DNA of 64,000 nucleotides from contig NZ_CP051206.1 in NCBI RefSeq assembly GCF_012516395.1, positions 1,302,001 through 1,366,000 on the forward strand, given 5' to 3'. The position numbers and the translations under genes were made by a program. The DNA is from Dolichospermum flos-aquae CCAP 1403/13F. GTDB taxonomy: Bacteria > Cyanobacteriota > Cyanobacteriia > Cyanobacteriales > Nostocaceae. This document shows, piece after piece, positions 28,766 to 56,043 of this stretch. A model generated the notes under the pieces. The model ran no database searches, was not told the origin of the DNA, and worked only from the letters and a program-made list of their open reading frames with translations. Position 1 is the first letter of the stretch, and every line of letters begins with the position of its first letter.

Positions 28766-28916
28766 GAGGTTGTTTGAAAACTTTTTCGTGTGGGATCTGA
28801 CACCCGCAGATCCCCCTAAATCCCCCTTACAAAGGGGGACTTTGAGGAATTTAGCCCCCCTTTGTAAGGGGGGTTGGGGGGATCTCGATTAATTCTGATA
28901 CTTTTCAAACATCCTC
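28766..28916. mobile_element. MITE copy 2 with TTA target duplication
   Basis: It begins GAGGTTGTTTGAAAAC and ends CTTTTCAAACATCCTC, flanked by TTA on both sides (28763-28765 and 28917-28919). The interior holds a G/C-rich palindrome built from 'cccccttacaaaggggg' and its complement. The flanks 'gtaggttgggttgacgta' and 'cccaacatcatatt' indicate that it inserted into another dispersed repeat. Confidence 0.85.
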
Positions 28917-44705: not shown

Positions 44706-44788
44706 TTTGGTTATGATTCAGATGATTACACAATATAGAATATATTGATTAATGGCAAGATTCAAATTTTTCACTACGTAACTAAACC

Positions 44789-44900
44789 GCCTACGATTAA
44801 AATCGCAGGCTAACAGCCAAAGTCCACTTTAGTGGACTGAAAATAAATCTTTAGTCTACTTTAGTAGACTTTAGCTATTAGACAGGGAATTAATTCCCTG
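44789..44900. repeat. Four-hairpin intergenic element, locus 2
   Basis: Hairpins: 44789-44810 (GCCTACGATT/AATCGCAGGC, one G-T pair), AGTCCACTTTAGTGGACT (44821-44838), AGTCTACTTTAGTAGACT (44853-44870) and CAGGGAATTAATTCCCTG (44883-44900). Spacers are 10-14 bases, including 'ttagctatta'. The element lies about 120 bases before the cytosine methyltransferase start. Confidence 0.9.
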
Positions 44901-45022
44901 GCAGAATAATTTTAGAATATAACAAACATAAATTTATTTTTTTCACAAAAATGATATTAACGAATAACTAATATAAGTTATACTAGCAATAATTAAATAA
45001 AATTTTCCTTAAATAGTATATT

Positions 45023-55701: not shown

Positions 55702-56043
55702 ATTTAGAAATGTTGGTTATAAGAAGTTATCAATCTCGTAAGGGTTTAGCAATGCTCATTGGTGTCAACTTAGGTTACAGATACTTCGACCCTTCGACAG
55801 GCTCAGGGCATCGCAAGCTCAGTACAAGTGGCTTATTTGTTTGGCTTCCACACCCGTCAGGGAATAAATTCCCTGTCTCATAGCTCAAGTCCGTTAAAAC
55901 GGACTAATAAATTTTCCTAGTATTTAGTCATCTTTTAGATGACTTTCGCTATTAGCAAGGAACTTGAGTTCCTTGCGGGATCAAGATTTTGCGTTAAGTT
56001 GACATCAATGAAGCTCTTGCTTTACCCCTACCATTTTACGATT
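55702..56043. other. Gap between gpmI and secG, filled by repeats
   Basis: It holds the dispersed repeat 'cttcgacccttcgacaggct' (55786-55805), a four-hairpin element (55868-55976) and no gene. Confidence 0.6.
55868..55976. repeat. Four-hairpin intergenic element, locus 3
   Basis: Hairpins: CAGGGAATAAATTCCCTG (55868-55885), AGTCCGTTAAAACGGACT (55898-55915), AGTCATCTTTTAGATGACT (55926-55944) and GCAAGGAAC/GTTCCTTGC (55955-55976). Spacer 'ttcgctatta' matches 'ttagctatta' of locus 2, so the two are homologous, yet the stems differ and stay paired. Confidence 0.9.

Follow-up and report, generated by a model that had tools for sequence, protein, structure and literature searches.

Two loci, at 44.8 and 55.9 kb of the 64,000-nucleotide stretch of the Dolichospermum flos-aquae CCAP 1403/13F genome analysed here (the window), each carry several hairpins in a row, and the stems of these hairpins differ between the loci on both arms together. 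This raises the question of what kind of element the two loci hold and whether the pairing serves an RNA or a DNA. An initial annotation, made from the letters of the window, had called the loci homologous, had taken the paired changes for a sign of selection on pairing in a repeat family, and had offered a structured RNA and a protein-bound cruciform as alternative readings.

Anatomy and dispersal of the element

Exploring the two loci, we found that they are indeed homologous and hold one dispersed repeat element, in which one unit, ~48 bp long without its tail, occurs twice in inverted orientation, the inner hairpins facing inside. From the middle outwards, the unit carries an inner hairpin AGTnnnn-loop-nnnnACT with a 4-nt loop (mostly TTTA), a 12-nt linker whose last three bases are AG and one further base, and then the outer hairpin, which has 7-9 bp (e.g. 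CAGGGAA-TTTA-TTCCCTG) and often GCGGGT or GCTT after it. The features are given below with their scores against R1, a covariance model built from 57 distinct units of the same genome (G000).

44785..44838, minus strand: left unit of element 1, R1 60.1 bits (G000:C1:1346785-1346838); tail 44785-44790, outer hairpin 44791-44808 (imperfect), linker 44809-44820, inner hairpin AGTCCAC/GTGGACT 44821-44838
44839..44852, no strand: spacer of element 1, 14 bp, separating both inner hairpins
44853..44906, plus strand: right unit of element 1, R1 76.8 bits; inner hairpin AGTCTAC/GTAGACT 44853-44870, linker TTAGCTATTAGA 44871-44882, outer hairpin CAGGGAA/TTCCCTG 44883-44900, tail 44901-44906
55757..56021, no strand: 265-bp stretch around element 2, which genomes G011, G002 and G006 lack at the corresponding site
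55852..55905, minus strand: left unit of element 2, R1 77.1 bits; tail 55852-55857, outer hairpin CAGGGAA/TTCCCTG 55858-55875, linker 55876-55887, inner hairpin AGTCCGT/ACGGACT 55888-55905
55906..55925, no strand: spacer of element 2, 20 bp, separating both inner hairpins
55926..55980, plus strand: right unit of element 2, R1 60.7 bits; inner hairpin AGTCATC/GATGACT 55926-55944, TTAG-containing linker, outer hairpin GCAAGGAAC/GTTCCTTGC 55955-55976

The arm pairs named in the initial annotation are present, AGTCCAC/GTGGACT against AGTCCGT/ACGGACT and AGTCTAC/GTAGACT against AGTCATC/GATGACT, as well as CAGGGAA/TTCCCTG and GCAAGGAAC/GTTCCTTGC, and the leftmost hairpin of element 1 (CCTACGATT/AATCGCAGG) is its imperfect outer hairpin. 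The CAGGGAA-type outer hairpin lies on the right side at 44.8 kb and on the left side at 55.9 kb; given that each element is an inverted pair of one unit, comparing the loci by unit is preferable to comparing them by hairpin along the plus strand. Folding as single-stranded DNA gave z = -5.68 for 44781-44910 and z = -7.16 for 55850-55985 relative to dinucleotide shuffles, with 0/200 shuffles as good in each case. Among 87 candidate units of the genome the linker was exactly 12 nt long in 63, and 62 of these were accepted as units (24 candidates were dropped for another linker length and one as a false unit). Stem types are linked within the unit: an AGTCGGT inner stem went with CAGGGAA in 21/21 accepted units, AGTGCGT with a CCGGAAC or CCGGAAA outer stem in 8/8 units, and AGTCATC mostly with CTGGGAA (9/11). 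The tetranucleotide 5' of the outer hairpin, hereafter the foot, was TTAG in 36 of 57 aligned units, TGAG in 12, TAAG in seven, CTAG in one and TCAG in one; all 57 end in AG and none has a GT[AG]G foot.

BLAST with element 1 against its own genome gave 57 matches, some of them two readings of one palindrome. Scanning the genome with R1 yielded at least 149 unit matches at E <= 0.01 (among the best 150 of 3433 candidates scored), a few of which overlap on opposite strands; 145 were entered as units and four, weak or lying over another unit, were dropped. Inverted (-,+) doublets hold 96 of the 145 units. Neighbours within 60 bp of each other are of the (-,+) kind in 48 of 54 cases, with a spacer of 8-55 bp in such close doublets, and joining the 145 units by these 54 close links leaves at least 91 separate places in the genome. 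Within the loci examined in this genome, 61/62 units lie outside ORFs of >=100 aa, which make up 69% of the same loci. The element thus has the features of a REPIN, i.e. two inverted palindromic units, a short spacer, dispersal and an intergenic position. Two loci of this genome (L027 and L028) share one unit, its left flank and part of its right flank, which suggests a larger duplication. The initial annotation would have given up its claim had there been no other copies anywhere; unit copies were detected in 36/41 genomes searched (E <= 0.001) and in 65/194 genomes of the class (E <= 1e-6), the own genome included in both counts.

At the site of element 2, G011, G002 and G006 carry an uninterrupted palindrome (imperfect in G006), whereas G000, G005 and G008 carry an insertion containing the doublet, which in G000 is 265 bp long with TGCT at both junctions; the sequence of G010, G012 and G009 has diverged at this site and lies outside the comparison. 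The TGCT junctions agree with CT cleavage or with a 4-bp repeat. Given that 265 bp exceeds the doublet, the ends of the insertion may belong to something else and the mobile piece may be larger; alternatively, three genomes may have undergone a deletion here. A clean empty site was found neither at element 1, where G008 is without about 230 bp between 7-bp direct repeats in what looks like a deletion, nor at another doublet (L026), where the site is repeat-rich.

At 55739-56033 of the window and at some other loci of the genome, doublets sit within nested palindromic repeats, being framed both by a larger inverted repeat (GTCAACTTAA...TTAAGTTGAC) and by a GTAG-ended palindrome (GTAGGGGTTTAGCAATGCTAAACCCCTAC). 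Inside the larger element, at about 55783-55828, lies a further short palindromic insert (CTTCGACCCTTCGACAGGCTCAGGG...CTCAGTACAAG), and similar text is seen beside doublets in L041, L044 and L045. Elsewhere in the window, at 28789-28876, there are three strong hairpins of another type (GGGATCTG..., TCCCCCTT... and CCCCCCTT...).

It could be argued that the doublet is passive cargo of a larger unrelated element with the ends GTCAACTTAA...TTAAGTTGAC that inserts into GTAG...CTAC palindromes, since the only clean comparison of an occupied with an empty site is the 265-bp insertion with such ends. Of 62 units of the genome, 18 have a TTGAC-type end within 110 nt in their outer flank, and nine of the 18 also have a CCCCTAC-type palindrome arm, but there is no such end within 110 nt at the other 44, and doublets recur beside tnpA genes of other genera and of Chloroflexi (see below), which makes passive carriage unlikely.

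Covariation of the stems

The claim that the stems covary was examined in two alignments. In 57 units of the own genome (798 cells) there were 139 double changes, three one-sided changes and three G-U pairs. In other genomes, 83 loci held 264 matches, the best 150 of which gave 132 distinct rows; here 1847 cells held 393 double changes, 10 one-sided changes, 22 unpaired cells and 14 G-U pairs. Sliding the partners by one to three columns reduced the covariation score from 0.573 to at most 0.086. Extraction of units demanded 7/7 inner pairs (G-U allowed) and >=6/7 outer pairs, and the alignment of other genomes was fitted to the covariance model, so that the percentage paired is partly a product of construction. 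Because unit finding inflates pairing while G-U was allowed, we put weight on the ratio of double changes to G-U pairs, and by this ratio the covariation noted in the initial annotation is genuine. Almost purely Watson-Crick exchange between copies is more what one would expect of DNA hairpins than of an RNA. In five genomes, a small sample, the element 1 orthologues showed one-sided changes and no visible compensation. From the pattern of substitutions we read this as pairing that would be required of the DNA when copies are made rather than of an RNA at each site.

The intergenic position, the strong folds and the compensatory changes would also be expected of a structured RNA family, regulatory or RNA-processing, that is dispersed between genes and in which selection on the RNA maintains the pairing. 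At gathering threshold, however, Rfam gave no match at either element, a tRNA-Gly being the only match in the window. With the limit relaxed to E <= 10, the surroundings of element 1 gave sub-threshold matches only, the best reaching 24.9 bits vs 117. An RNA would be expected to tolerate more G-U pairs than the 14/1847 and 3/798 cells seen here, and the orientation of the elements to flanking ORFs is not fixed (-- 13, ++ 12, +- 10, -+ 5, by rough ORF calling). Moreover, the one-sided changes in the element 1 orthologues stand against selection on an RNA at that site, and the link of the units to one transposase clade, described below, would be left unexplained. The RNA reading of the initial annotation is hence very improbable, whereas a protein-bound DNA hairpin does fit, with the HUH/Y1 transposase encoded next to the units as the likely protein.

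Template switching during replication is known to change both arms of a quasi-palindrome together and to favour Watson-Crick perfection. Such correction could keep the arms alike without selection on pairing, leaving the repeats as inert debris, and many copies are probably inert now. Taken alone, however, it gives no account of the dispersal, the conserved linker, the doublet geometry or the association with a single transposase clade across two phyla, and uncorrected one-sided changes persist in the element 1 orthologues (five genomes only). We regard it as quite unlikely to be the whole explanation, though it may contribute to the matching of arms. The idea of a repeat family under selection on pairing, put forward in the initial annotation, was the right one.

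Linkage of the units to one clade of Y1 transposases

The genome has ten Y1_Tnp matches. Our first idea was an ordinary RAYT/REP system, and a first scan of the Y1 loci gave no units because perfect stems in clusters were required; R1 then put units beside one Y1 gene. This gene (L054, G000:C1:4818029-4818499, outside the window) encodes a protein of 156 aa, MALWRLYYHLVWATKERQPLI...YVRNQKEHH, and has units on both sides. Comparison of its product with 41 genomes gave 31 matches, comprising 21 genes of >=53% identity (hereafter the clade), eight genes of <=40% identity and two further fragments of the >=53% group; the clade tnpA is present once in the own genome and in zero to four genes per genome among the 41, some of them in pieces. 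Units flank 20 of the 21 clade genes, the nearest within about 100 bp (R1, E <= 0.1, 40 loci), the only clade gene without a unit being a truncated copy (L113). By the same measure there was no unit match in the loci of the eight more distant relatives and of the nine other Y1 genes of the own genome (0/17).

A scan with one genome per species extended this result. From 557 confirmed relatives the best 80 were used, 44 loci at E <= 2e-35 and 36 lower-scoring ones. A full-length unit match of >=24 bits was present at 40/44 best-scoring loci (Cyanobacteria, Chloroflexi), including 6/7 of those that are Chloroflexi or Anaerolineae by title, and was missing at four (L169, L190, L191 and L198), whereas 0/36 lower-scoring loci, from many phyla, reached 24 bits. 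At least four genes are common to the counts of 21 and 44 (L158/L109, L163/L092, L184/L099 and L195/L101). In 19 tnpA loci laid out, the gene lies inside a doublet in seven, between doublets in five and otherwise in seven. One clade tnpA (L093, G019:C1:5441827-5445249) sits within an array of ten units of strictly alternating orientation.

Similarity of the transposases and similarity of the stems were correlated in a Mantel test (rho 0.46, 0/999 permutations as high), which kept 36/46 loci, the other 10 being dropped because their translation contains a stop or a strict unit is missing; the test is confounded by common descent. Genomes with a clade tnpA (n=17, fragments included) hold more units than those without (n=24), the medians being at least 82 vs at least 22 (Mann-Whitney p = 2e-4), a comparison that common descent confounds as well. 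Units are also abundant in genomes without a detected clade tnpA, with at least 141 each in G021 and G025, 98 in G009 and 70 in G008. The units at the tnpA of the own genome are of the AGTCGGC and AGTCAGC types and the abundant dispersed types are AGTCGGT, AGTCCGT and AGTCATC; given this difference, the tnpA now present probably did not spread most copies.

The L054 protein scored 85.8 bits against NCBIfam transpos_IS200 (cut-off 55) and 24.7 bits against REP_Tyr_transpos, below the cut-off of 80, and Pfam Y1_Tnp matches the clade protein. With a profile of 13 clade proteins, structures of the ISHp608 transposase are found at E about 2e-14, along with further structures that bear just the name 'transposase' and that we take to include ISDra2. 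H53, H55, Y113, Q117 and H121 are invariant in the 13 aligned proteins and H120 is present in 12, and the short core Y1 domain has the tyrosine motif Y---Q--HH (YVRNQKEHH in the own gene). The ends of IS200/IS605 elements, on the anatomy of IS608, carry one subterminal hairpin each, in same-strand sense, and such elements are multicopy and nearly identical. With this group (IS608, ISDra2) and the palindrome-associated miniature derivatives ascribed to it in the accounts available, the present system shares a homologous transposase and hairpins at the ends. Unlike IS200/IS605, it has double hairpins at each end, in inverted sense, and the own genome contains no multicopy tnpA-bearing element of the clade.

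A 2018 survey, in its accessible text, describes TnpA subclass 1.2 as having the Y---Q--HH motif, as low-copy and as occurring mostly in Cyanobacteria and Bacteroidetes (PMC6006769). By its signature, its occurrence in Cyanobacteria and its low copy number, the clade gene fits this subclass as published and would accordingly be classed there. The same text gives the subclass as generally without terminal IS200 structures and enters 'no' in its REP column (PMC6006769); unlike the published picture, double-hairpin units flank the genes here. The automatic REP search of that survey sought GT[AG]G at the foot (PMC6006769), and the units may have been missed because their feet are TTAG, TGAG or TAAG (55/57) or have another AG ending, never GT[AG]G.

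REPs and REPINs, as described in the available portions of the literature, are short intergenic palindromes of high copy number, often in inverted doublets, that lie beside a low-copy Y1 HUH transposase gene and have a foot tetranucleotide (PMC6006769, PMC3116915, PMC8266576). The present element resembles this description of REP/REPIN and RAYT in its high-copy intergenic palindromes in inverted doublets, its adjoining low-copy Y1 gene and its 5'-foot tetranucleotide. It differs in having two hairpins per unit with a fixed linker and a foot that ends in AG and is not GT[AG]G, and the adjoining transposase has the class-1 signature Y---Q--HH, not the class-2 Y---NP of RAYTs (Y---NQ here). If the units were nevertheless classical REPs of a class-2 TnpA-REP (RAYT), with the subclass-1.2 gene a mere neighbour, the REPIN-like inverted doublets would be explained, and class-2-like Y1 genes with Y...NP motifs do exist in the genome (L055, L056 and L057). 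There is no unit match in the loci of these three genes, however, and the GT[AG]G foot is absent in 57/57 aligned units, so that this explanation is highly doubtful.

Palindromic repeats of filamentous cyanobacteria with a GTAG tag have been published (GTAG-12, -15 and -16; PMC3733652, in the part available), and in this general respect our element is like them. The window family has no GTAG foot, unlike these REPs; the double-hairpin units of a sister clade (clade B, below) do carry a literal GTAG, a likeness drawn from the published description. The term 'double hairpin' is absent from the main text of PMC3733652. The bloom-forming Anabaena sp. 90 is described, in the text available, as having 147 small type II MITEs that do not resemble the inverted repeats of its IS elements (PMC3542288), and some of these MITEs may be the doublets described here, again likened by description only. 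Searches of the literature, with subscription papers mostly outside their reach and an earlier description therefore possible, found no recognisable description of this repeat or of a subclass-1.2 REP, and within the same scope none of six exact stem sequences led to a paper.

Double hairpins beyond the clade and a candidate mechanism

More distant relatives were examined with a model-free test, in which two hairpins 8-18 nt apart were sought within 450 bp of the gene and in a control stretch 1-1.45 kb away. Among the 44 best genes 34/44 were positive near the gene vs 1/44 far from it, and among the 36 more distant genes 15/36 near vs 1/36 far, 21/36 having no double hairpin by this test. Some loci were too short for the full far stretch; a side-wise recount that took only sides with both stretches complete gave 43/79 near vs 1/79 far for the best genes and 17/63 vs 1/63 for the distant ones. 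Block shuffles gave about 0.01 per locus, and control Y1 genes were positive in 0/12. At several distant loci (Chlamydiae, Acidobacteria, Desulfobacteraceae and Planctomycetes by title) a G+C-rich outer hairpin again follows a linker whose end, judged by eye, is TAG or AG.

In sister clade B of cyanobacteria (YIRNQ--HH), the outer hairpin is GCGGTT or GCGATT, the linker contains GTGTAG and the inner hairpin is AACCCAC or AGTCCAC. Three of five clade B loci pass the strict test (L103, L110 and L111); L105 has a degenerate copy, and L104 has the inner hairpin and a similar linker, the strict outer hairpin being absent. In four genomes the gene upstream of clade-B tnpA is of one kind (L103, L105, L110 and L111, in G017, G001, G014 and G011, respectively). 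In L103 and L110 the gene downstream of it resembles an SMC/DndD-type ATPase, and this neighbourhood may be a DNA sulfur-modification (dnd) locus.

The units share a fixed anatomy, are dispersed, have covarying Watson-Crick stems and, in the loci examined, are closely linked to one transposase clade in two phyla. We conclude that the element is very probably REPIN-like, non-autonomous mobile DNA, and that a single-strand HUH/Y1 transposase of TnpA subclass 1.2 probably acts, or once acted, on its two inverted double-hairpin units; the element's mobility, cleavage site and exact ends are what we infer from these features. TnpA would bind the outer hairpin and the 5'-foot tetranucleotide ending in AG on single-stranded DNA, e.g. 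the lagging-strand template, as at a REP or an IS200/IS605 end, and the inner hairpin would contribute clade-specific recognition. For GTAG feet, the last two bases have been proposed to pick a CT cleavage site; in the text available, foot mutants support this rule in one system and attempts failed in two (PMC8266576). If the same rule proposed for TnpA-REP applies, the foot AG would select a CT cleavage site, and its invariance in 57/57 aligned units predicts CT cleavage here. Doublets would be excised or copied and then joined elsewhere between genes. For the short doublets, the transposase would come in trans from one or a few tnpA genes, which are in turn located inside or between doublets. 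The subfamilies, with their differing stems, may represent successive or parallel transposase lineages, from which it would follow that stems covary between copies and yet decay uncompensated at a fixed site.

More broadly, we lean towards a third Y1 system besides IS200/IS605 and RAYT/REP, in which subclass-1.2-type TnpAs of several phyla would each have a dedicated double-hairpin repeat (an inner hairpin, an 8-14 nt linker ending in or near AG, and an outer hairpin). The outer hairpin and foot would set the cleavage site and the inner hairpin the identity, so that transposase and stems would diversify together.

Together, the data offer a candidate substrate for a transposase group that was described in 2018 as being without IS or REP structures and, conversely, a candidate transposase for an abundant class of cyanobacterial repeats. 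They lead to the prediction of a two-hairpin recognition code with a CT cleavage site, and the many lineage-specific stem pairs provide natural data for following the joint change of a DNA-hairpin-binding enzyme and its target.
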